In this document: positions 2,648 through 33,060 of the stretch, piece by piece
How positions within the stretch are numbered: position 1 is the stretch's first letter
Layout: the number at the start of each line of letters is the position of its first letter
Source: an uncultured Acidobacteriia bacterium
GTDB lineage: Bacteria; Acidobacteriota; Terriglobia; Bryobacterales; Bryobacteraceae
DNA: 35,972 nucleotides
Assembly: GCA_903828455.1 (NCBI GenBank)
Contig: CAIKMJ010000036.1
Coordinates: forward strand, 1-35,972
Direction of reading: 5' to 3'
Notes under the pieces: generated by a model
The model's database searches: none
What the model was told of the DNA's origin: nothing
The model's input: the letters and a program-made list of their open reading frames with translations, nothing else
Made by a program: the position numbers and the translations under genes

Positions 2648-4018
2648 ATGCTGAAGCCATCGATTTTTCGCGAATACGATATTCGCGGCATTGCCGATCA
2701 GGAACTTCTTTCCGAAGACGTAGAGACGCTGGGCCGGGCGCTGGGGACCTGGTTTGTGAGGCACGGCGCGCGGAAGCTCAATCTGGCGCGCGACTGCCGG
2801 CTGAGTTCGGACCGGCTGCACGCCGCGCTGCGCACGGGGTTGCTTTCGACAGGCTGCGAAGTGACCGACCTCGGAGTGGTGCCGACGCCGATCCTTTATT
2901 ACTCGGTCTTTCATCTGCACGCCGACGGCGGGGTGATGATCACGGGAAGCCACAATCCGAAGGACTTCAACGGCTTCAAGGTGATGCACGGCAAGAGCAC
3001 CATTCACGGCGAAGAGATTCAGCAGGTCCTGCGGCTCATACAGGCGGGCGATTTTGAGGCGGCCGAGGGCAGGCTGAGCGAGTACGACGCGGTGACGCCG
3101 TACGTGAACGAAATTGCCGGCCAGTTCAGCTGGAAGCGCCGGATCAAAGTGATCGCCGACGGCGGCAATGGCACGGCGGGCCCGGTATTTCGGCGCATTC
3201 TGGAAAAACTGAATGTGGAACCGGTGGAATTATTTTTCGAAATGGATGGAAATTTTCCGAATCACCATCCGGATCCGACGCAGCCGGAAAATCTGCGGCA
3301 TCTGGTGGGCGGAGTGCTGGCAAGCCGCGCGGACGTGGGGCTGGCGTTCGATGGCGATACGGACCGCATCGGCGCGGTGGACGAAAAAGGCACGGTGCTG
3401 TACGGCGATCAGCTGATGATCATTTATTCGCGCGAGATTCTGTCGCGCAAGCCGGGTTCGACGGTGATTGGCGAAGTGAAGTCGTCGCAGAATATGTACG
3501 ACGATATTCGCGCGCACGGCGGCAACGCGGTGATGTGGAAGACGGGCCACTCGCTGATTAAAGCGAAGATGCAGGAGCTGAGCGCGGAACTGGCGGGCGA
3601 GATGAGCGGACACATGTTCTTCGCCGACCGCTATTACGGGTTCGACGATGCCATGTATGCGGCCTGCCGGCTGCTGGAGATTGTGGCGAATTCCGACCAG
3701 CCGCTTTCGGCCGAACTGGCAGGGCTGCCGCAGACTTTTGCGACGCCCGAGCTGCGCGTGGACTGCCCCGACGACCGCAAGGTCCCGGTGGTGCAGGCGG
3801 TGCTGAAGAAATTCCGCGCCGAATATGAAGTCAACGATACCGACGGCGTGCGCGTGAACTTCGGCAAGGGCTGGGGACTGGTGCGCGCGTCGAACACGCA
3901 GCCTGTGCTGGTGCTGCGCTTCGAGGCGCAGTCGCCGGAGTTGCGCGATCAGTACCGCAAGCTGATGGAAGACGCGGTGATTGAGGCGAGCGGCGGCAAG
4001 CTGACGGCGTCGCACTAG
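2648..4018 (+). CDS. manB: Phosphomannomutase/phosphoglucomutase
   Basis: The 456-residue enzyme interconverts hexose 1- and 6-phosphates, feeding GDP-mannose or UDP-glucose synthesis for LPS and exopolysaccharide. All four family signatures are present: FREYDIRG near the N-terminus, the phosphoserine loop TGSHNPKDFNG with Ser101, the metal-binding loop DGDTDRIG (near residue 237), and the sugar-binding loop GEMSGHMFF. The C-terminal phosphate-binding RASNTQP is also present. Length matches the AlgC/ManB group. Whether mannose or glucose is preferred cannot be read from sequence; algC or pgm would be equally fair names. Its 3' end carries a 22-bp tandem array. Confidence 0.9.
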   Translation: MLKPSIFREYDIRGIADQELLSEDVETLGRALGTWFVRHGARKLNLARDCRLSSDRLHAALRTGLLSTGCEVTDLGVVPTPILYYSVFHLHADGGVMITGSHNPKDFNGFKVMHGKSTIHGEEIQQVLRLIQAGDFEAAEGRLSEYDAVTPYVNEIAGQFSWKRRIKVIADGGNGTAGPVFRRILEKLNVEPVELFFEMDGNFPNHHPDPTQPENLRHLVGGVLASRADVGLAFDGDTDRIGAVDEKGTVLYGDQLMIIYSREILSRKPGSTVIGEVKSSQNMYDDIRAHGGNAVMWKTGHSLIKAKMQELSAELAGEMSGHMFFADRYYGFDDAMYAACRLLEIVANSDQPLSAELAGLPQTFATPELRVDCPDDRKVPVVQAVLKKFRAEYEVNDTDGVRVNFGKGWGLVRASNTQPVLVLRFEAQSPELRDQYRKLMEDAVIEASGGKLTASH

Positions 4019-4064
4019 CGAACTGACGGCGTCGCACCAGCAAGCTGACGGCGTCAAATCAGCG
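3998..4064 (+). repeat. 22-bp tandem array at the manB stop codon
   Basis: CTGACGGCGTCGCA begins at 4001 and 4023, and a diverged copy (CTGACGGCGTCAAA) at 4045, an exact 22-bp period. The first unit is the end of the coding sequence including its stop codon; the other two fill the gap to the convergent tyrA gene. The array looks seeded from the gene end. Confidence 0.8.
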
Positions 4065-4069
4065 AGCAG

Positions 4070-4909
4070 CTAGCGGCGTTCGCGCAGGGAGCGGGCGAAT
4101 TCGGCGCCCTGGCTGAATTCGGTGGCGAAGCCGGCGCGCAGCGACTGCAGCTTTTCAATGTAGGCATCGAGCACGGCCGCAACCTCGGCGCTGTTGGTGT
4201 CGAGGATGTCGCGCCAGAGATCGTAGGAACTCAGGGCGAGACGCGTGGAATCGAGCAGGCCCGGCCCGGCCACGAGCGCGGCCTCGGGTGCTTTTTCTCC
4301 GAGAACGGACGCCAGCGCGGTGGACATGAGCTGCGGCAGGTGCGAACTCCACGCCACCAGACGATCGTGCTTTGCCGGATCGAGAATAATTTCGCGCGCG
4401 CCGATGGCGGAGATCCAGCGGCGAAGTTCGTGATCGATGTCGTCGGTGAGGATCCACGGGCGGCCGCGAAATAATCCGGCTTCGGCCGCTGCTGCGCCGC
4501 GGAGTTCCTTGCCCGCCATGGGGTGTCCGCCGACGAAGCGACAGCGCCGGAGCGAGCGGGCGGCCTCTTCGCAGATGACGCGCTTGGTGCTGCCGGCATC
4601 GGTGACGAGCGTATCGGGGCGAACCAGCGGATCGAGCCGCCGCAGCGTTTCCACGATGCCGAAGATGGGCTGCGAAAGGAACAGCAGGTCGGCGGACGAC
4701 GCCGCCTCTTCGAGCGTTGCGCCGCGGTCAATGGCGCCGCGCGCCTGGCCTTCTGCAATGCTGCGCGGCGAGCTGACGCCGAGAATTGTGCCGGTGAAAC
4801 CGGCCTCGCGGAGGGCAAGCCCGAACGAGGCGCCGATGAGGCCCACGCCGACGATGCCGACGGCGCGCATCGGCCGGGAAGCGGCGGAGGTTGAATCGTC
4901 TAGCGCCAA
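4070..4909 (-). CDS. tyrA: Prephenate dehydrogenase
   Basis: Oxidative decarboxylation of prephenate to 4-hydroxyphenylpyruvate, the tyrosine branch. The protein shows an N-terminal NAD-binding motif VGIVGVGLIGASFG and the prephenate-site motif GGHPMAGKE, with the helical dimerisation domain following. No ACT or chorismate mutase domain is fused; the mutase is the neighbouring gene. The start given is TTG 4909, which overlaps the aroQ stop by 10 bases. An ATG at 4870 would place only two residues before the Rossmann strand and is an equally plausible start. It is the last gene of the aromatic operon. Confidence 0.88.
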   Translation of the reverse strand: MALDDSTSAASRPMRAVGIVGVGLIGASFGLALREAGFTGTILGVSSPRSIAEGQARGAIDRGATLEEAASSADLLFLSQPIFGIVETLRRLDPLVRPDTLVTDAGSTKRVICEEAARSLRRCRFVGGHPMAGKELRGAAAAEAGLFRGRPWILTDDIDHELRRWISAIGAREIILDPAKHDRLVAWSSHLPQLMSTALASVLGEKAPEAALVAGPGLLDSTRLALSSYDLWRDILDTNSAEVAAVLDAYIEKLQSLRAGFATEFSQGAEFARSLRERR

Positions 4910-5208
4910 TGGTCCTTCACCGGGCCGCCGGGCGCCATGGGGTCTTCCTGAATCCGGCGCATTTCCTTCATGATGGCCTCAAAGATATTGCGCAGAGCCA
5001 GTTCGGTGATCGGCCCCCGATTCATTTCCGCAACGTGGGCGAGGACTCGCTCTTCGCGCGCGGGTTCATAGACCGGAAGGCCGGCTTCCTTCTTGATGTG
5101 GCCGATTTCGTGGGCGATCGCGGTGCGGTCGTTGAGGAGCGCCACCAACTGGCGGTCCACCGCATCGATCCGTTCCCGGCGCTTTGCCAGCTCGCTCTGT
5201 GTGTCCAT
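4900..5208 (-). CDS. aroQ: Chorismate mutase, AroQ class
   Basis: A stand-alone 102-residue all-helical mutase converting chorismate to prephenate, the substrate of the TyrA encoded just downstream. Typical AroQ residues are visible: RRERIDAVDRQLVALLNDR in helix 1, then IGHIKKEAGLPVYEPAREE with the catalytic Lys and Arg/Glu positions, and a final helix ending in MRRIQEDP. ATG 5208 is chosen, five bases after the trpA stop codon. A TTG at 5217 in the same frame would overlap that stop as TTGA. Small single-domain size matches the family. Confidence 0.88.
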   Translation of the reverse strand: MDTQSELAKRRERIDAVDRQLVALLNDRTAIAHEIGHIKKEAGLPVYEPAREERVLAHVAEMNRGPITELALRNIFEAIMKEMRRIQEDPMAPGGPVKDHWR

Positions 5209-5213
5209 CGAAC

Positions 5214-6005
5214 TCAAGATAACGCAGTCTTTGCGATGGGTCGCGTGAGGCTGTGCATGAAGCCTTCCAGCTGCGCCGGGTCCTTCTCAATCTGGCGGAC
5301 GATGGCGCTGCCGACGACGACGGCTTCCACCTGGCCGGAGAGAGCGGCCACGTGTTCCGGCGTCGAGATGCCGAAGCCGAGAGCCAGCGGAAGCGTGGTG
5401 AGCGCGCGCATGCGTTCAATGAGCGGCAGAGCGGAATCGGAGATGGTCTGCTGCTCGCCGGTGATGCCGGTGCGCGAGACCAGGTAGATAAAGCCGCTGG
5501 AGTATTCGGCGACCAGTTTGAGGCGGCGGTCGGTGGACGTGGGAGCGGCGAGGAAGACGGTATCGAGGCCGGCTTCGCGCATCACCCTCACGTATTCGCC
5601 GGCCTCTTCGACGCTGGCGTCGGTGAGAAGACAACCGTCGATTCCGGCCGCTTTGGCATCGGCCGCGAGGCGTGCGAAGCCGTAGCGCAGCGCCGGGTTC
5701 AGGTAAGTAAACAGCAGCAGCGGCACTTCCGAGCGTTTGCGGATTTCGCGCGCAATCTCGAGGACTTTCGCCAGCGTGGTGCCGGCGCGGAGCGCGCGAT
5801 CGCCGGCGAGCTGAATCACCGGGCCATCGGCAATAGGGTCGGAGAACGGAACGCCAAGCTCGATGAGATCGGCGCCGCCGCGTTCGAGAGCGGCGACAAG
5901 ATCAGGCGTGGCGGCAGGGCTGGGGTCGCCGGCGGTGAGGTAGGCGACCATGCCGCAGCGCTTTTCCGCTTTGAGTTTTTCGAATAACCGGGAGATGCGG
6001 GTCAC
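5214..6005 (-). CDS. trpA: Tryptophan synthase alpha subunit
   Basis: Cleaves indole-3-glycerol phosphate and passes indole to TrpB. Both catalytic acids fall at the textbook positions, Glu49 and Asp60, inside [18 protein letters not shown]. The phosphate-binding loops and a C-terminal strand/helix ([16 protein letters not shown]) are intact. Length of 263 residues is standard. Translation starts at GTG 6005, which overlaps the trpB stop as GTGA, so it is probably coupled to trpB. That coupling fits the obligate alpha-beta complex. Confidence 0.95.
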
Positions 6006-7198
6006 GCGGCGTCGAGCTCCTTGAGATTTTCCCGATAAATATCGATGTCTTTGTCACCGCGTCCGGAAAGGTTCACGATGAAGGTCTGTCCGGCGGCGGA
6101 GGGCGCGCGGCGGATGGCTTCGGCCACGGCGTGGGCGGATTCGAGGGCCGGAATGATGCCTTCCTTGCGGCTCAGCACGAGCGCGGCGGCGATGGCATCG
6201 GCATCGGAGCAGGAGACGTACTCGGCGCGCGAGCGGTCGTGCAGCCAGGCGTGCTCGGGGCCGACCGAGGCGTAATCGAGACCGGCGGAGACAGAATGCG
6301 TGAGGGCGATCTGGCCGTCGTCATCCTGCAAAAGATAACTGCGCGTGCCCTGCAGGACGCCCGGAGTGCCACCGGCAAAGCGTGCGGCGTGTTCGCCGAG
6401 ACCGGCGCCGCGACCGCCGGCTTCGACACCGACGAGCTTCACGCCATCGTCTTCGATAAAAGGATGGAAGAGGCCGATGGCGTTGCTGCCGCCGCCAACG
6501 CAGGCGATCAGGACATCGGGCAGGCGGCCTTCCGCCTTGAGGAACTGCTGCTTCGCTTCGAGGCCGATGACGCGGTGGAAGTCGCGCACCATGGCCGGGT
6601 AAGGATGTGCGCCGAGCGCGGAGCCGAGCAGATAGTGGGTGGTGGAAACGTTGGTGACCCAGTCGCGCATGGCCTCGCTGATAGCGTCCTTCAGGGTGCG
6701 GCTGCCGCTGGTGACGGGCACGACCTTCGCACCGAGCAGACGCATGCGGAAGACGTTGAGCCGCTGGCGGCGCATGTCTTCCTCGCCCATGTAGACGGTG
6801 CAGTCGAAGCCGAAGAGCGCGCACACCGTGGCCGTGGCCACGCCGTGCTGGCCGGCGCCGGTTTCGGCGATGACGCGGTGCTTGCCCATGCGGCGGGCGA
6901 GCAGGGCCTGGCCGATACAGTTGTTGATCTTGTGCGCGCCGGTGTGAAGCAGGTCCTCGCGCTTGATGTAGATCTTCGCGCCGCCGAGGTGCTTCGTCAG
7001 CTGCTCGGCGAAATAAAGCGGCGTGGGACGGCCGGCATAGGTGGTGAGCAGCTTATCGAGTTCGGCGTGGAAGGCGGGATCTTTCTTCGCGGCTTCGTAA
7101 GCAAGTTCGAGTTCTTCAAGCGGCGACATGAGGACTTCGGGGACGTAGCGTCCGCCGTAGGGTCCGAAGTGTCCGCCCGTGTCTGGTTGTGAGGTCAT
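6002..7198 (-). CDS. trpB: Tryptophan synthase beta subunit
   Basis: PLP enzyme joining indole and serine to make tryptophan. The PLP lysine is Lys90 in HTGAHKINN, the phosphate-binding loop is GGGSNAIG, and the N-terminus [16 protein letters not shown] is diagnostic for canonical TrpB1. The product is 398 residues, as usual. The same frame is open further upstream, but that part lies antisense to nothing conserved and inside trpF; ATG 7198 forms an ATGA overlap with the trpF stop, and homology begins right there. Confidence 0.96.
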
Positions 7199-8588: not shown

Positions 8589-8631
8589 ATTTCATCGTAT
8601 CGCAGCGGGATCGGGTAGGCGCGCATTTCGC

Positions 8632-8637
8632 TACACT
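8632..8637 (+). promoter_or_regulatory. -10-like TACACT six bases before the transglutaminase GTG
   Basis: TACACT, six bases, then GTG 8644. The same hexamer and spacing precede the S9 peptidase start at 26837. No clear -35 is present. Confidence 0.4.
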
Positions 8638-10859: not shown

Positions 10860-12122
10860 ATGTTCAGAAACGCGAAGCTCACCCTGGCGTGCTCGCTGCT
10901 CGCCTTTACGGCGGCCGGCAATCTGCTCGCCGCCGACGCAAAGGATCACCATCCGGCTCCGCGGGGGCCGCAGGGCAATATCAATCATGTGTTTGTCGTT
11001 GTGCTCGAAAACGAGGGCTACGACGTGACGTTCGGGCCAACCTCGAAAGCACCCTATCTTTCGAAGACGCTGCCCGCGCAGGGCGTGCTGCTGAATCAGT
11101 ATTACGGGACAGGCCATGTGAGTCTGGATAACTACGTGGCAATGATCAGCGGCCAGGCCGCCACCAATGAAACGCGCAACGACTGCACGGTTTACGCCGA
11201 CTTCAAAATGACCGGCACGACGCCGGACGGCCAGGCGATCGGCAGCGGCTGCGTTTACCCGGCGACGATCCGGACGGTTGCCGATCAGCTGACCTCGGTG
11301 GGGAAGACATGGCGCGGATACATGGAAGATATGGGCAACGACCCGAACCGCGAAGCGGCTACCTGCGGGCATCCGCAGCTGAACGCCACGGATCTGACGC
11401 AGGCGGCGGAAAAGCCGGTGGCGCCGCTGCTGATTGCCGACCAGTACGCAGCGCGCCACAATCCGTTCGTCTACTTCCACTCCATTATCGATTCGCCCGC
11501 GTGCAATACGAATGTGGTGAACCTGAAGCAGCTGACCACGGATCTGAAGAGCGCGGACACGACGCCGAACCTGGTGTTCATCACGCCGAATCTCTGCAAC
11601 GACGGCCACGACGCTCCCTGCGTGACGGGCGATCCGGGCGGCCTCGTTTCGGCCGACGCGTTCCTGCAGAAGTGGGTGCCGCAGATTCTCACTTCGCCCG
11701 CTTATCAGAGCGGAGGGTTGCTGATCGTGACGTTCGATGAAGGCGGACTGAGCGTGGCACCGGACCCGAACACCGCGGGAGCGTTCATCATCTCGGCGCC
11801 CGGGCAGTTCTGCTGCAACGAACAGCCGGGGCCGAATATCGGGACGTTCCCGCAGAGCGCGAAGCTGGGCCCGTACACTCTGACCTACCAGAACTACGGC
11901 GGCGACCGCACCGGCGCCGTGCTGCTTTCGCCGTTCCTGACGCCGGGCACGGTATCTTACACGCCGTTTAATCACTATTCAATGCTGCATACCATCGAAG
12001 ATATCTTCAATCTGGATTACCTCGGCTATGCGGGCCAGCCGGGGATGATCGGATTCTTTGGCTGTGTGACCGCGGACGTCGAAAACAGTGATGCGGGGCA
12101 GTTCGCCCAGTGTAGTAAGTAA
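10860..12122 (+). CDS. Secreted phosphoesterase (AcpA / phospholipase C family)
   Basis: A 420-residue protein with a clear Sec signal peptide (cut about residue 25, after LLAADA). The mature part begins with INHVFVVVLENEGYD, then YYGTGHVSLDNYVAMISGQ and FDEGG, which are the metal- and phosphate-binding motifs of the alkaline-phosphatase-like phosphoesterase family that includes acid phosphatase AcpA and bacterial phospholipase C. Eight or more cysteines in the mature part suit an oxidising periplasm. The substrate may be phosphomonoester or phospholipid; this cannot be decided. GGAG at 10844-10847 precedes the ATG. The stop codon lies inside the first units of a 15-bp tandem array. Confidence 0.85.
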   Translation: MFRNAKLTLACSLLAFTAAGNLLAADAKDHHPAPRGPQGNINHVFVVVLENEGYDVTFGPTSKAPYLSKTLPAQGVLLNQYYGTGHVSLDNYVAMISGQAATNETRNDCTVYADFKMTGTTPDGQAIGSGCVYPATIRTVADQLTSVGKTWRGYMEDMGNDPNREAATCGHPQLNATDLTQAAEKPVAPLLIADQYAARHNPFVYFHSIIDSPACNTNVVNLKQLTTDLKSADTTPNLVFITPNLCNDGHDAPCVTGDPGGLVSADAFLQKWVPQILTSPAYQSGGLLIVTFDEGGLSVAPDPNTAGAFIISAPGQFCCNEQPGPNIGTFPQSAKLGPYTLTYQNYGGDRTGAVLLSPFLTPGTVSYTPFNHYSMLHTIEDIFNLDYLGYAGQPGMIGFFGCVTADVENSDAGQFAQCSK

Positions 12123-12231
12123 CGCCGCGGTAAGTAACGCCGCGGTAAGTAATGCGGCAGTAAGTCAGTCGACGGCAAGTCAATCCGCAGTAAGTCAGTC
12201 TGAAGCCGGTAAGTTGAGTAAGTCAGTCTGC
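12114..12231 (+). repeat. 15-bp tandem array (about 8 units) over the phosphoesterase stop
   Basis: Units start at 12114, 12129, 12144, 12159, 12174, 12189 and 12217, all 15 bp, with one 13-bp unit at 12204. The first unit is AGTAAGTAACGCCGC and carries the gene's own TAA; later units drift (TAAGTCAGT). The first two units differ at one base, the others at more, giving a gradient of decay away from the gene. Confidence 0.9.
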
Positions 12232-15262: not shown

Positions 15263-15289
15263 TTTCTGAACGCGCTTATTTCTGAACGC
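15263..15289 (-). repeat. 16-bp duplication at the end of the PAL-like gene
   Basis: On the minus strand GCGTTCAGAAA occurs twice, 16 bp apart: once as the last codons of the gene (before TAA) and once just after the stop. Confidence 0.7.
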
Positions 15290-16373
15290 TTTGGGCCGGA
15301 GTCGGCTTGAGGATCAGTTTCTGCGCGCGCCAGTTGAGCAGTTCGCCGACGATCAGCGTATTTTCCGACGGACAGGCAATTTCGTGGATCCAGCCGAATT
15401 CCTTCATCTGGCGGCCCGCGCCGCCGAGGTAGCCGAGAACCTTGCCTTCGAGCGTCATCTTGTAAACGCGGCCGGGGAACGAATCGGAGCTGTATAAATA
15501 CTGCGTGCCGGCGGCGTTGGGCGGCGTGATGCAGACGGTCCACGGCGAGCCGTTCTGGTGGACGCCGGGCTGGTCCTCACCCTGGCGCGGCATGTTGCCG
15601 AGCCACGGCTGTGCGCCGGCCGGAATCGGCACGTCGATTTTGATGGCGCGCAGGAATGTGCCGTCGTGGTCGAAGACCTGGATGCGGCGATTGCCGCGAT
15701 CGGCCACATAGATGTTGCCCCTGGCGTCGGCGGCGATACTGTGCGGCGTGTTGAACTGGCCTTCCGCTTTCCCGAACGTTCCCCACGACTTCACCCAGCG
15801 GCCGTTCTTGTCGTACTTCGCAACGCGCGAATTGACGTAGCCATCGCTGAAGAAGATGTTGCCTTCCGGATCCCAGGTCACGTCGGTGGGCTGGCGGAAC
15901 TGGCCGTCGATGGCCGGAAGCGGCGGATTCACGTGCTTCCAGGGTTCGGTGCTGTCATCGGAGGCTTCCTTCTTGCGACCGAAGGTCATGGTGACCTGGC
16001 CGGCCGGGTTGAACCGCACCATCATGTCGCTGCCCTTGTCGACGACCCAGATGTTGTCGTCCTTATCCACACGCACGGTGTGGGCGAACGACCAGGCGTA
16101 CAGGTTTTTGCCGATCTCACGGATGTACTTGCCGGTGGCGTCGAACTCAAACAACTGCGCGGCTGTGGATGCGTAGGCCGGCCCGCCGACGCCGGTGCGG
16201 GAGAACACGAAAATGTGTCCCTTCGAATTGACGGCGACGCCGGAGACTTCGCCCAGATACAAATCGGTGGGCGTCTTGAGGAAGTTCGGCACGGAGTCGA
16301 AGGCAATCTCGGTCGGCTGCTGCGCATATGCGCCGGCGGCGAGAGCCAGCAGAGCTATCAGGATGTGTTTCAC
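15276..16373 (-). CDS. Secreted NHL propeller, amidating-lyase-like (copy A)
   Basis: A 365-residue exported protein with a signal peptide (HILIALLALAAGAYA) and a beta-propeller of NHL repeats. The series DGYVNSRVAKY, FNTPHSIAAD and VADRGNRRIQVFD is close to the core of peptidylglycine alpha-hydroxyglycine alpha-amidating lyase (PAL), including the Tyr, Arg and His used there. SFAHTVRVD gives a further His. The bacterial role is unknown; the animal partner domain (copper hydroxylase) is not present. GTG 16373 is chosen because the signal peptide follows and GGAG lies eight bases upstream. A related protein is encoded at 33034-34044. Confidence 0.82.
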   Translation of the reverse strand: MKHILIALLALAAGAYAQQPTEIAFDSVPNFLKTPTDLYLGEVSGVAVNSKGHIFVFSRTGVGGPAYASTAAQLFEFDATGKYIREIGKNLYAWSFAHTVRVDKDDNIWVVDKGSDMMVRFNPAGQVTMTFGRKKEASDDSTEPWKHVNPPLPAIDGQFRQPTDVTWDPEGNIFFSDGYVNSRVAKYDKNGRWVKSWGTFGKAEGQFNTPHSIAADARGNIYVADRGNRRIQVFDHDGTFLRAIKIDVPIPAGAQPWLGNMPRQGEDQPGVHQNGSPWTVCITPPNAAGTQYLYSSDSFPGRVYKMTLEGKVLGYLGGAGRQMKEFGWIHEIACPSENTLIVGELLNWRAQKLILKPTPAQSVQK

Positions 16374-18444: not shown

Positions 18445-19926
18445 GTGGAGATTCGCCCCACTCTCGACCCGGGCTCGGAAGTGCCTTTATACCGTCAGCT
18501 TGGCGTGTATCTGCACAAGCTGATCGAAAACGGCGAACTGCGGCCGGGCGATCGTTTGCCTCCAACCCGCGAATTGGCTGGCCAGCTTGGACTGAACCGT
18601 ACCACCGTATCCGCCGCCTATGAACTGCTGGAAACACAGGGGCTGATCAAGGGCGAGGTGGGCCGCGGCAGCTACGTCTGCGGCACGAAGCGAGCACCGG
18701 CCGCGGGCACGACCCGCGCGACGCCGGAATCGCTGAACTGGGCGCGGCTGCTCACGCCGTCCATTGGACCCGCGGCGGCGACGCCGGCGAGCGACGTCAT
18801 CAGTTTCACCAATTCGCGCCCCGCGGCGAACCTGTTTCCCGTGGACGAATTCCGCGCCTCGTGCCTTGAAGTGCTGGGGCGGGAAGACCTGAAGGCGCTC
18901 CTGCAACTCGGCTCGCCGGGCGGCTACGAACCGCTGCGCCGGTACCTGATGGAACGCGCGGCGGCGCAGGGCCTCGCGGGGCCGGATGACGAGATTCTGA
19001 TCACCAATGGCTGCCAGCAGGCGCTCGATCTGCTGCGCCGCGCCCTGGTGAAGGCGGGCGACCGGGTGGCAATGGAAGATCCGGTTTATCCCGGCCAGAA
19101 GAATCTGTTTCTCGAAGCGGGGGCGGAGCTGACCGGGATTGCGATCGGCGAGGACGGCATCGATCTGGCAGGCCTGCGGCGCGCCTTCGATCGCGGCGCG
19201 CGGCTGCTGGTTGTGACGCCGTCGTTCCAGAATCCAACCGGCGCCACGATTCCCGCCGCCCATCGCGAAACCATTTGCGCGATGGCGCGAGCGGCCGGCG
19301 CCGCCATCGTCGAAAACGACGTTTACAGCGAACTGGCCTGCGACGGCACGCTGCTGCCGCGTCTGAAGCAGTTCGACCCGAATGTGATCCTGCTGGGCAG
19401 CTTTTCCAAGATCGCCTTCCCCGGCGTGCGCGTCGGCTGGATTATCGCCCCGCGCGCCGTGATCGCGCGCGCCACCGAACTGAAGCAGCTCGCCGACCTG
19501 CATACGGACCATCTGGCGCAGGCCTTCCTGCTGCACTTTGCGCGGAGCGGACGGCTGGCCGCGCATGAAGCGCACGTCCTCGAAGCGGCGCGCGGGAAAC
19601 TGCGGGCGCTCGATGAGTCCTGCAGGCGGCATCTGGCCGGCTGCGCGTGGCAGATTCCGGGCGGGGGCATGAACATCTGGATTACGCTTCCCGCGGGCCT
19701 CGATGCCGTTTCGCTGCGGGGCCTCGCGCAACAGGCGGGCATCGATTATCTGCCCGGCCGCTACTTCGCGGTTTCGCATCCGCAGGACGGCGGGCTGCGC
19801 CTGAGCTTCGCGGGCCTTGAGCCGCACGAAATCCGCGAGGGGATCGCGATCCTCGGCGCGGTGATTCAGCGGGCCAACGGTTTGCGCGGCGCCGCGGCAC
19901 AAAGCCCCGCGCTGGCACTTGTTTGA
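18445..19926 (+). CDS. pdxR: MocR/PdxR-type regulator (GntR helix-turn-helix plus aminotransferase fold)
   Basis: The 493-residue protein has a GntR winged helix (residues 1-75, with [18 protein letters not shown] and [14 protein letters not shown]) joined to a fold-type I aminotransferase domain. The PLP lysine is Lys322 in [14 protein letters not shown]. This is the MocR architecture. It sits directly ahead of pdxS and pdxT in the same direction, so I infer it senses PLP and controls vitamin B6 synthesis like PdxR of Firmicutes and Actinobacteria. A palindrome over its own promoter suggests autoregulation. In most known cases pdxR is divergent from pdxST; here it heads the unit. A different amine ligand remains possible. 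Confidence 0.82.
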
Positions 19927-19952
19927 GTTTCGGTTTGAGATTTCGGTTTGGA
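19921..19952 (+). repeat. 12-13-bp repeats at the pdxR stop codon
   Basis: GTTTGAG occurs at 19921 and 19933 and GTTTGGA at 19946, linked by TTTCG. The first copy contains the pdxR TGA. The array fills the gap before the pdxS ribosome binding site (GGAG, 19961-19964). Confidence 0.65.
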
Positions 19953-19970
19953 TTTTCCACGGAGAAAACA

Positions 19971-20858: not shown

Positions 20859-20860
20859 TC

Positions 20861-20905
20861 GGCGTGAAGACACACGGCGTGAAGACACACGGCGTGAACA
20901 AACGC
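20861..20905 (+). repeat. 15-bp repeat carrying the pdxT start codon
   Basis: GGCGTGAAGACACAC occurs at 20861 and 20876, with a diverged third unit at 20891. Each unit contains an in-frame GTG (20864, 20879, 20894). The array begins two bases after the pdxS stop. Confidence 0.85.
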
Positions 20906-21490: not shown

Positions 21491-21900
21491 AGCGGGTTCT
21501 GTTCGTCTGCATCGGCAACACGGTGCGCAGCCCCATGGCGGAGGGCTTTGCCAACCGCTACGGCTCCGACGTGCTGACGGCGCGCAGCTCGGGCCTCGCT
21601 TCCACGCAGAGCCTTGCGCGCGACACGCGGCTCGTGATGCAGGAAATCAACATCGACATTTCGAAGCACGTGCCGCGCCCCTACGATCCGTTCGATGCGA
21701 TCACGTACGATCTGGTGGTGAATATGGCCGGTTACCGGCTGCCTGGCCATCCGCCGAAGGAAGTCATCGAATGGAAGGTGCCGGATCCTTACGGGTCGAC
21801 CGTGGCCGAGTACCGCAAGGCGCGCGACACCATCGAGCAACTCGTGATGCGGCTGATTCTCGACCTGCGGCGGAAGGCCGGCTCCGCGCCGCGCCGCTAG
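21487..21900 (+). CDS. Low-molecular-weight protein-tyrosine-phosphatase/arsenate-reductase-like
   Basis: The 137-residue protein has the phosphatase loop CIGNTVRS (Cys8, Arg14, Ser15; CX5RS) and the general-acid motif VPDPYGST near residue 98. The loop requires the start to lie upstream of GTG 21523, which would cut off the catalytic Cys. No ATG, GTG or TTG is in frame between the preceding stop at 21424 and 21523. CTG 21487 is therefore the likely start; it overlaps the pdxT stop as CTGA and would be translated by coupling. Phosphatase and arsenate reductase share this fold; genomic position after pdxT gives no clear hint. Confidence 0.78.
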   Translation: MKRVLFVCIGNTVRSPMAEGFANRYGSDVLTARSSGLASTQSLARDTRLVMQEINIDISKHVPRPYDPFDAITYDLVVNMAGYRLPGHPPKEVIEWKVPDPYGSTVAEYRKARDTIEQLVMRLILDLRRKAGSAPRR

Positions 21901-21938
21901 CATTCCGCCATAACGGCGTCGTCAACCGCAGCGGCACC

Positions 21939-22008
21939 GCATCCACGTCAAGGCATCGACGCCAGCGCATTCACGGCAAAGCATCGACGGCAACGCACCG
22001 GCGGCAAA
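21939..22008 (+). repeat. 14-bp tandem array, five units
   Basis: Units begin at 21939, 21953, 21967, 21981 and 21995 with consensus GCATCGACGGCAAA. It occupies the middle of the 152-base gap between the phosphatase and hydrolase genes, so here the array is intergenic rather than on a stop codon. Confidence 0.8.
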
Positions 22009-23123: not shown

Positions 23124-24662
23124 TTGCTGCGCACGGAAAATCCGCGAATTCAGGCGCTGGCGGGCCTGGGAATCTTTCTCGCCGTCAGTCTCCTGTCCTT
23201 CTTTCTGACGGCTGACATTTTCCATCCCTCGATGGATGAGGGCATTTACCTCGAAGGCGCGCACCGCATTCTGCGTGGCGAAGCGCCTTACCGCGATTTC
23301 TTCGCCTACACCGGCCCGCTCGTTTACTGGGTACAGGCGCTGCTCGAAGCCGTCTTCGGCGTCAGCATTCGCTTCCTCCGGCTTCCCACTTCGATTGCGA
23401 TGGGCCTGACGGCGGCGGCGCTCTTCTGGCTTTCGCTGCGCCCGCTCGGATGGAAATTCGCGCTGGCGCTGCCCGCCGCGTTCGCCAGTCTGCGGCTGAC
23501 GCAGGTCCACCACTTCGACGTGAACCATCGCTGGCTGAGCACATCGCTGATGACGATGGGAACGGCCGTAGCCATCGATGCGGTACGCGCGGGCCGCGGC
23601 CGCCGGGCGTGGTTCGGCGCAGGCGCGCTGTTTGCCGCAGCCGCGTGGGCCACGCCGACTTACGTCATCCCGCTGCTGTTGCTTGCCGCGTGGCTCGCTT
23701 TCACTCCCGCGCTGCGCCGCTATATCGTCGCATTCGCCGCGGGCGTTGCGCTGGTCTCCGTGCCCGCCGCCGGATGGCTGGCCGCGCACGGCGCGCTGCT
23801 GCCGATGATCGTGAATCTGGGCTGGGCCGGAAGCCGATACCGAACCGCGAATTCGGTGCCGTACGGTTACTATCCGTTTGCGTTCAATTCGCTCAAGGGT
23901 CCGACGTCCTGGCTGATCGCCATCCAGCCGCTGGTTTCGGTCGTACTCATTCCGCTGACGCTCGCCCTCGGCGCGTGGGAGGTTTACCGGCGGCGCTGGG
24001 GCGCTGCTGAAGCCCTGCTTCTGCTGCTGGCGTTCGGGATGTTTCTCACCAGCTGGCCGCGCTGGGATGTGAACCTGCTGCTCGGCGTGATTCCGCTGTA
24101 TCTGGTGTTGTTCAGCACGTGGGCGCTGCAGCATCTGAACGACAGGCAGCAGAGCGCCGCATTTACCGCGGGGCTGTTGCTGCAGGTCGGCGCAACCACG
24201 TATTGTGCGTTTCTCCTGTTCTGGAGCATCGGCGCGGTGAGCGATTTCCAGTACTTCCCCACGCGCGTGGGCCAGTTGCGCAACGTGCCCGATGACGGGC
24301 AGGCCATGGCGGCGCTGGAACAGGCGATCCCGGCCGGCAGCAGCGCCTACGTTTTCCCCTACATGCCGCTGATGGGCTACATGCTGCGCACGGAAAACCC
24401 GACGTCGTACTCGTACCTGCAGCCCGGCATGATGTCGATCGACGACGAAGGAATTGTCCTGAACGAACTTCGCCGCAAGCCGCCGGAGTACATTCTGCGG
24501 CAGTACATTCCCGACGATCAGGTGCTGGAAGTGTGGCCCAACAGCGACCCCACCGCCATGCGCTTCCCGGCCATTGAAGATTTCATCAACTCCCGCTACA
24601 CCGAAACCGGCCACGTGCAGTGCACGCATTTCGCGATGGTCATTCTGCACCGCCGCGACTGA
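23124..24662 (+). CDS. GT-C-like integral membrane glycosyltransferase (putative)
   Basis: The 512-residue product has about ten to eleven membrane spans and, in the first periplasmic loop, SMDEGIYLEGAHRILRGE: an acidic motif typical of GT-C mannosyl/arabinosyl transferases that use polyprenyl-phosphate sugars. APYRDFFAYTGPLVYW follows, a familiar pattern of the same clan. A soluble C-terminal part (about residues 385-512) probably lies in the periplasm. The donor and acceptor are unknown. TTG 23124 is the only good start before the first helix; no ATG is in frame there. Confidence 0.7.
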   Translation: MLRTENPRIQALAGLGIFLAVSLLSFFLTADIFHPSMDEGIYLEGAHRILRGEAPYRDFFAYTGPLVYWVQALLEAVFGVSIRFLRLPTSIAMGLTAAALFWLSLRPLGWKFALALPAAFASLRLTQVHHFDVNHRWLSTSLMTMGTAVAIDAVRAGRGRRAWFGAGALFAAAAWATPTYVIPLLLLAAWLAFTPALRRYIVAFAAGVALVSVPAAGWLAAHGALLPMIVNLGWAGSRYRTANSVPYGYYPFAFNSLKGPTSWLIAIQPLVSVVLIPLTLALGAWEVYRRRWGAAEALLLLLAFGMFLTSWPRWDVNLLLGVIPLYLVLFSTWALQHLNDRQQSAAFTAGLLLQVGATTYCAFLLFWSIGAVSDFQYFPTRVGQLRNVPDDGQAMAALEQAIPAGSSAYVFPYMPLMGYMLRTENPTSYSYLQPGMMSIDDEGIVLNELRRKPPEYILRQYIPDDQVLEVWPNSDPTAMRFPAIEDFINSRYTETGHVQCTHFAMVILHRRD

Positions 24663-24676
24663 CATCGCTTACGGCT

Positions 24677-24766
24677 GGCCGATGTTCGCCTGACCGATGC
24701 TCGCCTGGCCGATGTTCGCCCGACCGATGTTCGCCTGACCGATGCTCGCCCGACCGATGCTCGTCT
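24677..24766 (-). repeat. 15-bp tandem array, six units, next to the S9 peptidase stop
   Basis: Six consecutive 15-bp units (starts 24677, 24692, 24707, 24722, 24737, 24752) of GRCCGATGYTCGCCY fill almost the whole gap between convergent genes. The last unit runs into the peptidase stop codon (24765-24767). Units differ at only one to four bases. No gene in this gap is likely. Confidence 0.92.
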
Positions 24767-27932: not shown

Positions 27933-28037
27933 GTCTTTCGCCTTGCCTCCGGGACCAATTCTAGCGAAAGCACCCGCAGAATCAACAGGAAAGCCCCGAT
28001 ACCGCTCCACCGACCATTCCAGTCCGGATTTAACTCA

Positions 28038-28067
28038 TTGACGACAAAAGGAGCCATGCGCTACTAT
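28038..28067 (+). promoter_or_regulatory. isc operon promoter
   Basis: TTGACG (28038-28043), 18-base spacer, TACTAT (28062-28067). The transcript would start near 28074, giving a leader of about 22 bases. Downstream, GGAC and GTCC flank seven bases, a possible but weak IscR half-site pair. Confidence 0.5.
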
Positions 28068-28095
28068 CGATTCAGGACTACTTCGGTCCGGGTTC

Positions 28096-28572
28096 ATGCT
28101 AAAGCTCACCAAAAAGGCCGATTACGGGCTGATTGCCCTGCGCCACCTGGCCTCCGTGCCGGGTCAGACGGCCAATACGCGCGACATCGCCGATGCCTAC
28201 CGGCTGCCGGTGCCGCTGCTGGCCAAGGTGCTGCAGACGCTCACCCGCGCGGGCATCACGCAGTCGGTGGCAGGCACCAACGGCGGATACAAACTGGCCC
28301 GCGAGGCCTCGCGCATCTCGGCGCTCGAGGTGGTGCGCGCGCTGGATGGTCCCGTCATCCTGACCCACTGTTTTACCGAGCACGGCACCTGCGATCAGTC
28401 GGACGCCTGTACGGTGCGCGAACCCCTGCGCCGCGTCCACGAAGCCATACTCGACCTGCTCAACAAGTTCACCATTTCGGACCTCGCGGAATCGCCGGCG
28501 GCGCGCCTGACGCAGCTGCCCGTGCCCGCCGCCGCCATTTCATCGCAATCGGAATTCGAGGCAAGATCATGA
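28096..28572 (+). CDS. iscR: Rrf2/IscR-family Fe-S cluster regulator
   Basis: The 158-residue winged-helix protein ([13 protein letters not shown] at the N-terminus, recognition helix about 38-52) has the cluster cysteines Cys92, Cys99 and Cys105, matching E. coli IscR 92/98/104. The fourth ligand of E. coli, His107, is replaced by Arg108 (CTVREP). Histidines at 91 and 97 are nearby alternatives. It heads the isc operon and its TGA overlaps the iscS start as ATGA. It most likely senses Fe-S status and controls its own operon. Confidence 0.92.
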
Positions 28573-29783
28573 AGACGCCACTTTATCTGGATAATCACGC
28601 CACCACGCGCATGGACCCCCGGGTCCTCGACGCGATGCTGCCCTACTTCACCGAACACTTCGGCAACGCCGCCAGCCGCAACCATGAATTTGGCTGGGCC
28701 GCCGAGCAGGCCGTCGACAAGGCGCGCAAGCAGATTGCCGACCTCATCGGCGCTTCGCCCCGCGAAATCGTCTTCACCAGCGGCGCCACCGAATCGGACA
28801 ACCTCGCCATCAAGGGCGTGGCCGAAATGTATGCCGAAAAAGGCAATCACATCATCACGGCGGCCACCGAGCACAAGGCCGTTCTCGATACCTGCAAGAA
28901 GCTCGAAAAGCACGGCTATCGCGTGACGTATCTGCCGGTGCTGGCCGACGGCCTCGTCGATCTCGACATGCTGCGCGAAGCGATCACCGATAAGACCATC
29001 CTCGTCAGCATCATGTATGCGAATAACGAGATCGGCGTGATCCAGCCGGTTGCCGAAATCGGCAGGCTCTGCCGCGAAAAGGGCGTGCTCTTCCACACGG
29101 ACGGCGTGCAGGCGATCGGCAAAGTGCCGGTGAACGTCGAGACCGACAACATCGACATCATGTCGATCACGGCGCACAAAATGTACGGCCCGAAAGGCGT
29201 AGGCGCGCTCTATGTCCGCCGGCGCAATCCGCGCGTGCAGCTCACCGCGCAGATGGATGGCGGCGGTCACGAACGCGGCATGCGTTCCGGCACGCTGAAC
29301 GTGCCCGGCATCGTGGGACTCGGCGAAGCCTGCGCCATCTGCCACCGTGAAATGGCGACCGAAATGCCGCGCCTGCAGGCCCTGCGCGACCGCCTGAAGA
29401 CGAAGCTGGAAGCCGGTCTCGATGAACTTTATCTCAACGGTTCGTGGGAGCACCGCCTGCCCAACAACCTCAACATGAGCTTCGCTTATGTGGAAGGCGA
29501 ATCGCTGCTCATGGGCATCAGCGACATCGCGGTATCGAGCGGCTCGGCCTGCACTTCGGCGACGCTCGAACCGAGCTACGTGCTCAAGGCGCTCGGCCTC
29601 GGCGACGACATCGCGCACTCTTCGATTCGCTTCGGCATCGGACGCTTCAACACGGAAGAAGAAATCGACTACGTGGCCGCGCGGCTCATCGAAGTGGTCA
29701 CCAAGCTGCGCGAACTTTCGCCGCTCTACGAAATGGCGAAAGAAGGCATCGACCTGAGCAAGGTCCAGTGGGCACACGACTAA
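28569..29783 (+). CDS. iscS: Cysteine desulfurase IscS
   Basis: PLP enzyme supplying sulfur from cysteine for Fe-S clusters. The product is 404 residues, as in E. coli. Lys204 in [10 protein letters not shown] binds PLP, and the sulfur-carrying Cys is residue 328 in [13 protein letters not shown], the same number as in E. coli IscS. The group I loop is full length. The same frame is open for almost 4 kb upstream, but that is antisense to the peptidase and methyltransferase genes; [16 protein letters not shown] at ATG 28569 is the true N-terminus and overlaps the iscR stop. Confidence 0.97.
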
Positions 29784-29810
29784 CAGACGAGAACGAGGGA
29801 GACAATCACC

Positions 29811-30224
29811 ATGGCATATTCCGAAAAAGTTCTGGATCATTACAATAACCCGCGTAACGTCGGGTCGCTCGACAAGAAGTCCGCCAACGTCGGCACCGGC
29901 ATGGTGGGCGCGCCCGAATGCGGCGACGTCATGAAGCTGCAGATTCAGGTCAACGAAGAGAACGGCATCATTGAAGATGCCAAATTCAAGACCTTCGGCT
30001 GCGGCAGCGCCATCGCCAGCTCCTCGCTCGCCACCGAATGGCTCAAGGGCAAGACGGTGGATGAAGCGCTCGCCATCCGCAACACCGACATCGTCAACGA
30101 ACTCAGCCTGCCGCCGGTGAAGATCCACTGTTCGGTGCTGGCCGAAGACGCCATCAAGGCCGCGATCAGCGACTATCGCGCCAAGCAGACGACGAAGACG
30201 GCGGCGGAACAGACGGTTGCCTGA
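29811..30224 (+). CDS. iscU: Fe-S cluster scaffold IscU
   Basis: The 137-residue scaffold has Cys37, Asp39, Cys64 and Cys107, the residues that hold the nascent cluster. LPPVK (100-104) is the chaperone-recognition motif bound by HscA, which is also encoded here. The start has a purine-rich GAGGGAG upstream (29795-29801). The C-terminus has a short Thr/Lys/Ala tail after SDYRAKQ. It lies 27 bases after iscS. Confidence 0.97.
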   Translation: MAYSEKVLDHYNNPRNVGSLDKKSANVGTGMVGAPECGDVMKLQIQVNEENGIIEDAKFKTFGCGSAIASSSLATEWLKGKTVDEALAIRNTDIVNELSLPPVKIHCSVLAEDAIKAAISDYRAKQTTKTAAEQTVA

Positions 30225-30225
30225 A

Positions 30226-30630
30226 GTGGTCGAAGAAGCCAAACCCGAACAGGCAGCGGAGACGGCGGCTCAGCACGCGGCTCAGCACGCCGAACAACAG
30301 CCGGCGCCCGGTATTGCCGTCACGCCGAAAGCCGTGCAGAAGATCCGCCAGACGTTCGCCAAAATGGGCGTCCAGGGCGGGCTGCGGCTCGGCGTGCTCG
30401 GCGGCGGCTGCTCCGGCCTGAGCTATCAGTTCAAGTTCGAGCCGGCGCCGCGCGCGCGCGATAACGTTTATGACTTCGACGGCGTGAATATCTACATCGA
30501 TCCCAAAAGCCTGCTCTATCTGCACGGCATGACGCTCGACTACAAGGAATCGCTCATGCAGTCCGGCTTCGTGTTTGAAAATCCCAACGCGAAGAAGAGC
30601 TGCGGCTGCGGGACGTCGTTCTCGGCATAG
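30226..30630 (+). CDS. iscA: A-type Fe-S carrier IscA (N-terminally extended)
   Basis: The HesB/IscA core (about residues 27-134) has all three conserved cysteines: GGGCSGLSYQF and CGCGTSF. Ahead of it is an extension of about 27 residues rich in Ala, Gln, His and Glu, including a duplicated AAQH. Typical IscA is about 107 residues, here 134. GTG 30226 follows the iscU stop by one base; TTG 30217, overlapping it, would add three residues. ErpA is the alternative name, but the operon position favours IscA. Confidence 0.9.
   Translation: MVEEAKPEQAAETAAQHAAQHAEQQPAPGIAVTPKAVQKIRQTFAKMGVQGGLRLGVLGGGCSGLSYQFKFEPAPRARDNVYDFDGVNIYIDPKSLLYLHGMTLDYKESLMQSGFVFENPNAKKSCGCGTSFSA
30265..30288 (+). repeat. 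12-bp duplication in the iscA N-terminus
   Basis: GCGGCTCAGCAC occurs twice in tandem (30265 and 30277), encoding AAQH twice within the N-terminal extension. Confidence 0.8.
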
Positions 30631-30633
30631 CGC

Positions 30634-31164
30634 ATGACCGCGGACTATTTTGCATTCTTCGGACTGCAGCCGGCTCTCGCCCTTGACCTGAAAGATCTGG
30701 AAAAACGCTTCCTCGATCTCAGCCGCCGGTACCATCCGGATCTGAACGCCCGGAAGCCGGCGGCCGAACGGGAAGCCGCACTCGAAGCTTCCGCCATTCT
30801 GAACGACGCCTACCGCACGCTTCGCGAACCCATTGCCCGCGCCATGTATCTGCTGAAGCGTGAAGGCTTCGACATCGGCGAGCAGACTACCAAAGACGTT
30901 CCGCCCGAACTGCTCGAAGAAGTCTTCGAGCTGAATATGGCGCTCGAAGAACTGAAAGACGGCGACACCGATGCCCTGCCCCAGATCGCGGCGGCTCGCG
31001 AGCGTTTTCTCGCATCGCGCAACGAGGTCGACGGGGAAATCGGGGCGAAATTCGCCGAGTGGGATGCGCAGCACAGCCGCGACACGCTGTCAGCCATCCG
31101 CGGCCTGCTCAACCGCCGCAAGTACATATCGAATCTGATCGAAAAGACCAATGTTCCAGATTGA
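30634..31164 (+). CDS. hscB: J-domain co-chaperone HscB
   Basis: The 176-residue protein has an N-terminal J-domain with the HPD motif at residues 34-36 (RRYHPDLN), then a C-terminal three-helix domain that binds IscU. It brings IscU to HscA and stimulates its ATPase. [15 protein letters not shown] at the N-terminus is typical. It starts three bases after iscA and overlaps hscA by 14 bases. Confidence 0.93.
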
Positions 31165-32992
31165 GTTTGGCGAAAATGACGACAAAGTCGTCGGCATCGA
31201 CTTAGGCACCACCAACAGCCTCGTCGCATGGATGAACCTGACCAAGCCCGAAGTGCTGCCGGGCGAAGACGGCGACAAGCTCGTCCCCAGCGTCGTCTCG
31301 CTCACCACCGACGGCGCCATCATCGCCGGCAACGCCGCGCGCAAAGAGCTGATCGATCATCCCGACCGCACCATTTACTCGGTCAAACGCCTGATGGGAC
31401 GCGGCGTCGCCGACGTTCAGGACGAACTCAAACTCTTCCCGTTCCGCATTGCCGAAGGCAGCGATTCCGTCATCCAGGTCCGGCTCGGCGAAAGGACGTT
31501 CACTCCGCCCGAGGTTTCGGCGTTCGTTCTGAAGCAGCTGAAGAAGAATGCCGAAGCCGCCCTCGGCGCGCCGGTGACCAAGGCCGTCATCACCGTCCCT
31601 GCTTATTTCAACGATGCACAGCGCCAGGCCACGCGCGATGCGGGCCGCATCGCCGGTCTCGAGGTTCTCCGCCTGGTCAATGAACCCACCGCGGCGGCCC
31701 TCGCCTACGGGCTCGACAAGCGCAAGGAAGGCATCATCGCCGTTTACGATCTCGGCGGCGGCACCTTCGACATTTCCATCCTCAGGCTGCACGATGGCAT
31801 CTTCGAAGTGCTCGCCACCAACGGCGACACGCACCTCGGCGGCGACGACATCGATAACCGGCTGATGCGCATTGCGCTCGAAGACATCCAGAGCGAGTGG
31901 AAGGAAGATATTTCGCACTCCGGCGAGGCCGTCCAGACGCTGCGCCGCGACGTGATCGCGGCGAAGGAAGCGCTGTCGTTTGCGCCCGTCGTGCATCTGA
32001 AGTTTTCCTGGAACGGCAAAAGCTACGACCGCGAACTGACCCGCGAGCTTTTCGAAGGGCTGATCAAAGACATCGTCGACCGCACGCTCGGCCCCTGCCG
32101 CGACTGCATGAAAGACGCCGGCGTCACCCCCGAACAGATCGATGAAGTCGTCATGGTCGGCGGTTCCACCCGCATCCCGCTGGTGCGCAGCGCCGTCGAA
32201 GTGCTCTTCCGGGCGCGCCCGCACACGGAACTCAATCCCGATGAAGTCGTCGCCCTCGGCGCGGCGGTTCAGGCCGGCATCCTCTCCGGCACGGTGGAGA
32301 ACCAGCTGCTGCTCGACGTCACGCCGCTCTCGCTCGGCATCGAAATGTACGGCGGCGTGGTGTCAAAGCTGATCCACCGCAACTCCACCATCCCCGCCAG
32401 CGCCGGCGAAGTCTTCACCACCGGCGTCGACGGCCAGACGAACGTTCTCATCCACGTGCTGCAGGGCGAACGCGAACTGGCGAAGGACTGCCGCAGCCTC
32501 GCCCGCTTCGACCTGAAGGGCATCCCGCCCATGCCCGCCGGCATGGCCCGCATTGAAGTCCGTTTCCTGATCGACGCCAACGGTATTCTCAGCGTCACCG
32601 CGAAGGACGCCCGCACCGGCCAGGAGCAATCCATCGAAGTCAAACCTTCTTACGGATTAACCGACGAGCAGGTGGAAGCCATGATCGAAGCCTCCATCGA
32701 ACACGCGCAGGAAGATCTCGACGCCGCGCAGGTCGCCATGGCGCGGGTGGATGCCGACGGTATCCTCGCCGCTGTCGCCAAGGCCCAGCGCGACGCCGCT
32801 TACGACGGGCTCGACGGAGAAGAGCGCGCCTGCATCGAAGCCGCCATCCGCGAAGTGCAGGCCGTTTATCATTCCGACGACCATGAAAAGATTCGCGAGA
32901 AGATCGACTTACTCAACGAAGTGACTCGCGGCCTCGCCGAAACCATGATGAACACGGCCGTCCGCGGCGCTCTGCGCGGCACGCACGTATAA
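31151..32992 (+). CDS. hscA: Hsp70-type chaperone HscA
   Basis: The 613-residue chaperone releases clusters from IscU to target proteins. The ATPase domain shows [24 protein letters not shown] and [11 protein letters not shown]; the substrate-binding domain follows from about residue 385 with [12 protein letters not shown]. It is shorter than DnaK and lacks the disordered tail, as expected of HscA. Position after hscB and the LPPVK motif in IscU support the assignment. It is the last gene of the operon; ferredoxin and IscX are absent. Confidence 0.93.
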
Positions 32993-33002
32993 GTTAGTCG
33001 GA

Positions 33003-33060
33003 CTTACTTTTTCGGCGCGTACTTTTTCGGCGCTTACTTTTTGAGCGCGTACTTCTTGAG
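33003..33060 (-). repeat. 15-bp array copied from the gene end (four units)
   Basis: On the minus strand the last codons and TAA of the PAL-like gene (AAAAAGTAA preceded by AAGAAGTACGCGCTC) continue past the stop as AAAAAGTACGCGCCG and AAAAAGTAAGTCCGA. Units start every 15 bp (33003, 33018, 33033, 33048 in plus coordinates); the last is cut at 13 bases. Confidence 0.92.

Follow-up and report, generated by a model that had tools for sequence, protein, structure and literature searches.

An excess of short tandem duplications, in and between genes, in a Bryobacterales-like acidobacterial chromosome

The chromosome of an uncultured Bryobacterales-like acidobacterium (Acidobacteriota; genome G000, a draft of 4.40 Mb in 80 contigs, 98.6% complete) contains short tandem arrays in its non-coding DNA at about 8–10 times the density found in its sampled relatives. 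The stretch of 35,972 nucleotides presented above (the window) makes up contig 36 of this genome in full. A preliminary description of the window named eight such arrays, most of them at gene ends, and suggested a process that repeatedly duplicates short DNA at gene boundaries. The observation holds, and the burst is larger than was reported there. Its main fact, the raised density, lay outside the window. A special gene-boundary process is not needed. The best explanation, and in our view a fairly probable one, is a lineage-specific rise in slippage-type tandem duplication of 12–16 bp, filtered by selection.

Arrays were detected with Tandem Repeats Finder (TRF) in 1,093 kb of the genome (24.8% of 4.40 Mb), made up of a first set of 727 kb and a further 366 kb; the sample was not a random draw. 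It contains 105 arrays in 131,139 bp of non-coding DNA, a density of 8.0 per 10 kb; a further 122 arrays are mostly coding, at 1.27 per 10 kb in 962,311 bp. The first 727 kb gave 83 non-coding arrays, or 10.4 per 10 kb. The relatives are represented by 29 genomes (6 from the genus of G000, 19 from its family and 4 from its order, with 11–188 kb each), which when pooled have 20 arrays in 197,002 bp of non-coding DNA (1.0 per 10 kb; binomial P 5e-24 for the difference) and 60 in 1,257,850 bp of coding DNA (0.48 per 10 kb). Counted by gaps of at least 40 bp, an array is present in 73 of 341 here (727 kb) and in 19 of 648 in the relatives, which is about a sevenfold difference. Intergenic arrays were found in 45 of the 58 sampled loci of the genome, and the 227 arrays in 24.8% of its length extrapolate to a total of about 900.

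G020 has the highest density, 3.3 per 10 kb, of those relatives whose sampled non-coding DNA exceeds 9 kb; the value of 8.0 per 10 kb for G063 comes from a single array in 1.25 kb of non-coding DNA, in a sample of 11 kb. Genes were called using a custom hexamer caller, which agrees in strand and frame with every open reading frame (ORF) of the window that has a profile match. Three relatives (G118, G027 and G016) come out as 60–75% coding, and because missed genes probably inflate their non-coding length, array density is lowered in some of the relatives. The array counts cover 19 of the 98 family-level relatives, and the density leaves out the genus members G002, G006, G007, G008, G011 and G012, together with G013, G015, G018 and G019. 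Sampling was light (38–60 kb) for G003, G004 and G009, and some stretches were picked for a protein match there (for example G001:C20, G009:C58 and G014:C39, and many of the family-level stretches). Five loci of 1.5–3 kb that read as N were dropped (L002, L012, L014, L059 and L077); the first three are contigs C1, C11 and C13 of G000, of 1.5–1.8 kb each and N throughout.

A count of tandem repeats against shuffled controls, made in the first 727 kb, gave 73 real intergenic arrays, compared with a mean of 1.8 (maximum 3 in 10 shuffles) when the same intergenic segments of at least 40 bp were shuffled by dinucleotides. Shuffled segments of the relatives, with runs of N removed, gave 0–1. Perfect adjacent duplications of at least 10 bp were counted separately, which avoids the consensus step of TRF. 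Their density per 10 kb is 4.5 in non-coding DNA here and 0.46 in the relatives, and 0.48 and 0.11, respectively, in coding DNA, while shuffled intergenic segments of G000 gave 0, 0, 0, 1 and 3 such duplications. Given that the coding duplications are raised too, relaxed tolerance between genes is not sufficient on its own. It is of interest that 122 of the 227 arrays lie mostly in genes, and the arrays are thus not confined to gene boundaries. Slippage tolerated between genes, which was one of the options put forward for the window, fits the observations, if one adds that this lineage seems to have a raised supply of duplications.

The duplications belong to a narrow size class. The 59 perfect non-coding duplications have units of 10 bp (1), 11 (1), 12 (4), 13 (6), 14 (12), 15 (14), 16 (4), 17 (2), 18 (3) and 19 (3), followed by a thin tail. 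The 46 perfect coding duplications have units of 12 bp (16), 15 (28), 24 (1) and 27 (1): all 46 are multiples of three, and none is of 18 or 21 bp. Units of 12–16 bp account for 84 of the 105 perfect duplications here and 12 of 23 in the relatives (9 non-coding and 14 coding; Fisher P 0.008), and those of 10–11 bp for 2 of 105 and 7 of 23 (Fisher P 7e-5), P values that are optimistic because some arrays contribute more than one duplication, with the shape of the relatives' spectrum resting on 23 duplications. A bias in unit length, with 15 bp as the favoured length, had been suspected from the window; the bias is present, and the favoured class is 12–16 bp with a peak at 14–15, rather than 15 itself. 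Arrays detected by TRF wholly in genes have a unit that is a multiple of three in 111 of 119 cases. Of the perfect duplications that touch no called gene only 17 of 48 are multiples of three, so that the peak at 14–15 bp is not a shadow of the coding constraint.

As stated in the preliminary description, the units are unrelated between sites. No motif is common to them in a comparison made without separate alignment of the unit boundaries: the commonest 6-mer is present in 11 of the 104 intergenic units, within the maximum of 8–16 for random intergenic windows. They therefore lack the sequence shared between sites that defines REP/BIME, MITE and other interspersed intergenic repeat families. 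Compared with random intergenic windows, the arrays have a slightly stronger purine and GC skew, and they show no bias in orientation or strand.

Array coverage changes markedly at the borders of genes. Inside genes it is generally about 0.4–1.1%; approaching the stop it is 0.8–1.0% from 200 to 15 bp before, and 2.8% in the last 15 bp. Past the stop it is 6.3% (0–15 bp), 9.5% (15–30), 9.9% (30–60), 9.2% (60–100), 7.8% (100–150) and 4.7% (300–500). Before starts it is 6.1–6.6% at 60–200 bp and falls to 4.4% (30–60 bp), 3.1% (15–30) and 1.6% (the last 15 bp), with 0.7% just inside the gene. There are 33 arrays that span a stop and, among the rest, 5 that span a start (34 and 8 of 227 in a looser count). 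This profile reads as one of tolerance, low at ribosome-binding sites and promoters and high past stops. When a duplication spans a stop, the first stop is kept and the protein stays intact, whereas one lying over a promoter or a ribosome-binding site may be harmful; tolerance thus explains most of the pattern.

The enrichment at gene ends claimed for the window holds in part. Of 97 array centres, 41% are no further than 50 bp from a stop, compared with 20% of random non-coding positions, but the bias is modest once the gap is given: when arrays are placed at random in the same gaps, 43% are expected within 50 bp of a stop and 51% are seen (P=0.05), and for gaps of up to 400 bp the values are 54% and 61% (P=0.12). 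In same-strand gaps the mean array position is 0.39 of the distance from stop to start (n=58, P=0.0016). Density per 10 kb is 14.1 in convergent, 8.3 in same-strand and 6.0 in divergent gaps. The high value for convergent gaps is expected anyway, because these have two stops and no start, and it lends no specific support to break repair at transcription-replication conflicts, the other option raised for the window. Transcription ends may nevertheless contribute to the making of duplications.

At some sites the arrays are a gain relative to the relatives. Conserved neighbouring gene pairs allowed 40 comparisons with six genus relatives, of which 6 (3 distinct gaps) have an array here, and in these three gaps the relatives' sequences that were viewed have no arrays. 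In locus L044 there are 15-bp units, each copy with GAATGA or GAATAA, in a gap of 78 bp, while in two relatives the genes overlap by 4 bp or stand 2 bp apart. The array between pdxS and pdxT (20860 in the window) is absent from G010. The gap before pdxS, which contains the array at 19921, is 44 bp here and 16 bp, without an array, in G010; this is a weaker case, since the gap in G003 is 35 bp, and is known by length only. A homologue among the sampled relatives is available for 14 of 120 coding arrays (in 12 genes), 9 of which are net insertions here, mostly at termini and in linkers.

On the basis of these observations, we hypothesise that short tandem duplications, mostly of 12–16 bp but extending to about 30, are made at an increased rate throughout the chromosome of this lineage. 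They would probably originate from misalignment of the nascent strand in replication, either by slippage or by template realignment at microhomologies. The first duplications would then expand to 3–13 copies through slippage between copies, and would decay through point mutation. Their observed distribution would be set by selection: multiples of three would survive in genes, duplications just before starts would be removed, and those past stops would be almost free. We thus infer three things: that the event is slippage, that there has been a change of rate and not one of tolerance alone, and that the positional pattern is the work of selection. Among 36 clean two-copy cases, 21 have an extra match of at least 3 bases beyond the unit, compared with 11% of simulated blunt duplications, and these extra bases fit slippage at microhomologies. 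Whole units were added, as every perfect coding unit is a multiple of three but the total length of the match is not.

Several points weigh against this reading. Microhomology at birth is not proven, as the extra match may be the remnant of a decayed third copy. Generic slippage predicts neither the scarcity of 10–11 bp units nor the peak at 14–15. Among the slippage-suppressing genes that were tested, no loss came to light: MutS, the PolA 5' nuclease domain, RecJ and the large subunit of ExoVII are all present. Array-free gaps are also somewhat longer here (median 44 vs 30.5 bp in 22 comparisons), and for 5 of the 14 coding arrays that have a homologue the comparison shows no insertion. TRF arrays lying wholly between genes have a unit divisible by three in 36 of 69 cases, above one third; we cannot fully account for this excess, although some of these arrays may be old gene ends. 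Finally, the perfect duplications are not all independent, with some arrays (for example L049, 18672–18767) giving two or more.

The presence of the four repair genes just named led us to reject the loss of mismatch repair, of a flap nuclease or of a single-strand exonuclease as the cause. SbcD is uninformative, with no match in 6 of 13 genomes, including G000 and G010. Y-family polymerases have one match here and 0–2 in the 12 relatives tested.

A tentative alternative, to which we give clearly less weight than to raised slippage, is a dedicated duplication mutator. A replication or repair activity would have been lost or altered so as to make tandem duplications at a fixed scale of 14–15 bp, perhaps the length of a displaced strand or a repair patch, in a lineage that would also have lost Ku and LigD. 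To our knowledge, studies of bacterial mutators have mostly concerned point changes and single-unit slips. If true, the mutator reading would give bacteria a mutational signature not described before, found in the hundreds at gene ends and as in-frame insertions in proteins.

More doubtful is an enzymatic process with a built-in length of about 14–15 bp, such as the filling-in and rejoining of staggered nicks or breaks, the ligation of an unremoved strand-displaced flap, or the faulty resolution of repair patches, the size class being the length of the stagger or patch. It would account for the narrow class of 12–16 bp with its sharp lower edge, for the occurrence of 12 and 15 bp but not 18 and 21 bp among the perfect coding duplications, and for the 9 of 36 clean two-copy duplications that have no extra match. 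Set against it, the standard bacterial joining enzymes, Ku and the LigD polymerase, were not found in the genome, the units have no shared motif, and growth to many copies requires slippage in any case. The lower edge might also mean that shorter units are lost faster.

The failure to find these enzymes leads to a further proposal, that once this lineage had lost non-homologous end joining, its breaks were repaired by an error-prone pathway which leaves short tandem duplications behind. Ku was not found in G000 and is present in 12 of 12 genus relatives (two by partial matches), and the LigD polymerase, also not found in G000, is present in 6 of the 6 genus relatives tested. The coincidence with the burst is striking but not sufficient, because other relatives without Ku have no burst: in G014, G016 and G017 the total is 3 arrays over 52.7 kb of non-coding DNA. 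Similarly, G117 and G027, which lack the LigD polymerase (the only one of the two tested there), contain a single array in 20.5 kb. Alternative end joining mainly produces deletions. Moreover, Ku and LigD adjoin in G010, and the apparent absence of both may therefore be a single assembly gap, even in a genome that is 98.6% complete. We consider this proposal improbable. A recent loss of end joining in G000 is, as an observation separate from the arrays, possible.

Marginally less probable still is that the arrays are functional gene-end elements (terminators, stabilisers of mRNA 3' ends, or protein-binding arrays) kept by selection. The enrichment 15–100 bp past stops and the abundance in one lineage would agree with such a role, but the units have no shared motif and fold no better than random intergenic DNA (mean -1.2 vs -1.5 kcal/mol), the same size class occurs in frame inside genes, and no Rfam family at gathering score is present in the window. 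An assembly or binning artefact, which a draft in 80 contigs might invite, is scarcely credible: copies often differ by point changes, the perfect coding duplications keep frame without exception, and the intergenic arrays are spread widely over the sampled loci, and the arrays thus behave as real DNA under selection.

In the window itself, TRF (at score 30) recovers seven of the eight arrays in the preliminary description, and the matches between copies are 71–91% in six of these. Four of the eight have a 15-bp unit, as had been noted. The statement that six contain or touch a stop codon and one copies a start is a fair one. Four arrays span a stop. The first (3996..4055; 22-bp unit, 2.7 copies) spans the TAG of a phosphomannomutase/phosphoglucomutase-like gene (2648-4018, plus strand) and fills most of the convergent gap to 4070. 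The second (12115..12165; 3.4 copies of the 15-bp unit GTAAGTAACGCCGCG) spans the TAA of the plus-strand gene 10860-12122; a further, degenerate TRF row takes it to 12200, and similar words continue to about 12230. The third (19921..19955; 12–13 bp unit, given by TRF as 12 bp in 2.8 copies) spans the TGA of a GntR/aminotransferase gene and leads to pdxS. The fourth (33005..33060, minus strand; 15-bp unit, 3.7 copies) covers the last codons and the stop (33034-33036) of an NHL-repeat protein gene (33034-34044, minus strand), as well as the DNA downstream.

Between pdxS and pdxT, a perfect 15-bp array of 2.6 copies (20860..20898, plus strand) begins 2 bp past the pdxS stop and runs over the called GTG start of pdxT. 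The array duplicates the start in frame and lengthens the N terminus of PdxT by 10 residues relative to a G003 homologue. A 15/30-bp array (24675..24763; 5.9 copies of 15 bp) takes up the greater part of the convergent gap from the stop at 24662 to that at 24765, and ends no more than 2 bp short of the latter, which belongs to the convergent gene. A degenerate 14/28-bp array (21932..22008) lies downstream of a low-molecular-weight phosphatase gene (21535-21900, plus strand). The eighth is a weak candidate (15263..15290), with an 11-base word repeated once at 16 bp in a convergent gap of 32 bp, and is absent from the TRF list. There is also an in-frame coding counterpart, namely a perfect 12-bp duplication (30265..30290, plus strand) inside a gene with a Fe-S_biosyn domain (called as 30226-30630, plus strand); the N-terminal stretch in which it lies is absent from a homologue, the start codon of the gene being uncertain.

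The arrays adjoin metabolic and housekeeping genes: trp, pdxS/pdxT, HSP70, HscB-like and iron-sulphur cluster genes. Profile matches in the window identify genes for tryptophan and pyridoxal-phosphate synthesis, an iron-sulphur cluster gene set and an acidobacterial VWA-domain protein, and no tRNA was found within it. For one of the proteins, the nearest named records are metagenome genomes of Terriglobia and Bryobacterales, at 67, 55 and 48% identity. The nearest relatives found, judged on single proteins, are G004, with a phosphomutase that is 74% identical, and G010, with an aminotransferase that is 68% identical. At the end of the window (34041-35969), one frame encodes a partial KDO-transferase-like domain and an LpxK domain, an apparent KdtA-LpxK fusion that runs off the contig end.

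Four observations were made at other loci of the genome. Two arrays are unusually long, one in L016 (4394-4785; 40-bp unit, 9.8 copies) and one in L004 (3624-3887; 20-bp unit, 13 copies), the latter spanning a stop. Elsewhere in L016 (2109-2291), two adjoining 12-bp coding arrays form a low-complexity segment of about 60 residues that is mostly absent from the G010 homologue. In L167 (9853-9882) there is a perfect 15-bp duplication of TGTTTCACGTGAAAC, counted among the coding class, which we take to resemble the ParB binding site parS.

A chromosome with about 8–10 times the intergenic tandem duplications of its sampled relatives is a natural experiment on how such duplications originate, what activity limits them and which insertion sites are tolerated. 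The map of coverage around stops and starts is in effect a map of tolerance at gene borders, and the in-frame copies show how new tails and linkers can be added to proteins. The narrow size class, with its cause, is what makes the burst worth following, and it also makes the mechanism testable.

Bacterial variable-number tandem repeat (VNTR) or minisatellite loci have tandem units of similar size, many of them intergenic, and are presumed to arise through slipped-strand mispairing. The arrays described here, with head-to-tail copies of a unit longer than 9 bp, resemble them in structure and may belong with them. They differ in their extrapolated number of about 900, in a non-coding density about 8–10 times that of sampled relatives, and in having a preferred unit size. 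Judged by title and start of abstract, none of the open-licence papers among the matches listed describes such a burst in a bacterial chromosome, which is weak evidence of novelty; this includes the papers listed for tandem repeats in acidobacteria and in Bryobacter. In the parts of the Candidatus Solibacter usitatus paper that were compared, tandem-repeat searches appear only in the methods and references (PMC3174227).

A census of short tandem repeats in 117,861 genomes (PMC12699852) resembles the present work in being a genome-wide count and, in the parts compared, in describing effects of frame on prokaryotic unit length. It covers units of 1–9 bp and would therefore miss the class of 12–16 bp. 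The TAACTGA direct repeats of Beggiatoaceae, as far as the passages compared describe them, are likewise many intergenic tandem arrays in one bacterial genome (PMC4679880). They consist of one heptamer and lie mostly just before starts, whereas the arrays here share no sequence and avoid starts.

The closest known system appears to be the tandem repeats of Borgs (PMC9879509). According to the passages compared, these are many independent head-to-tail arrays, each with its own unit, located between genes and in ORFs and sometimes starting in the end of an ORF; units in ORFs are multiples of three, partial copies flank the arrays, and they are virtually absent from host genomes. The differences are several. 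The carrier here is a bacterial chromosome and not an extrachromosomal element. Units are mostly 12–16 bp, compared with Borg examples of 18–36 nt in those passages, and the copies are often imperfect, whereas Borg units are perfectly repeated. Adenine makes up 20.1% of the arrays and 20.6% of all intergenic DNA here, in contrast to the adenine enrichment of Borg units. The family B polymerase, the type suspected in Borgs, has no match here, with one weak match among 13 genomes. The likeness is nevertheless clear in two respects, that each array has its own unit and that units inside genes are multiples of three, as in 46/46 of the perfect duplications and 111/119 of the TRF arrays of this genome.

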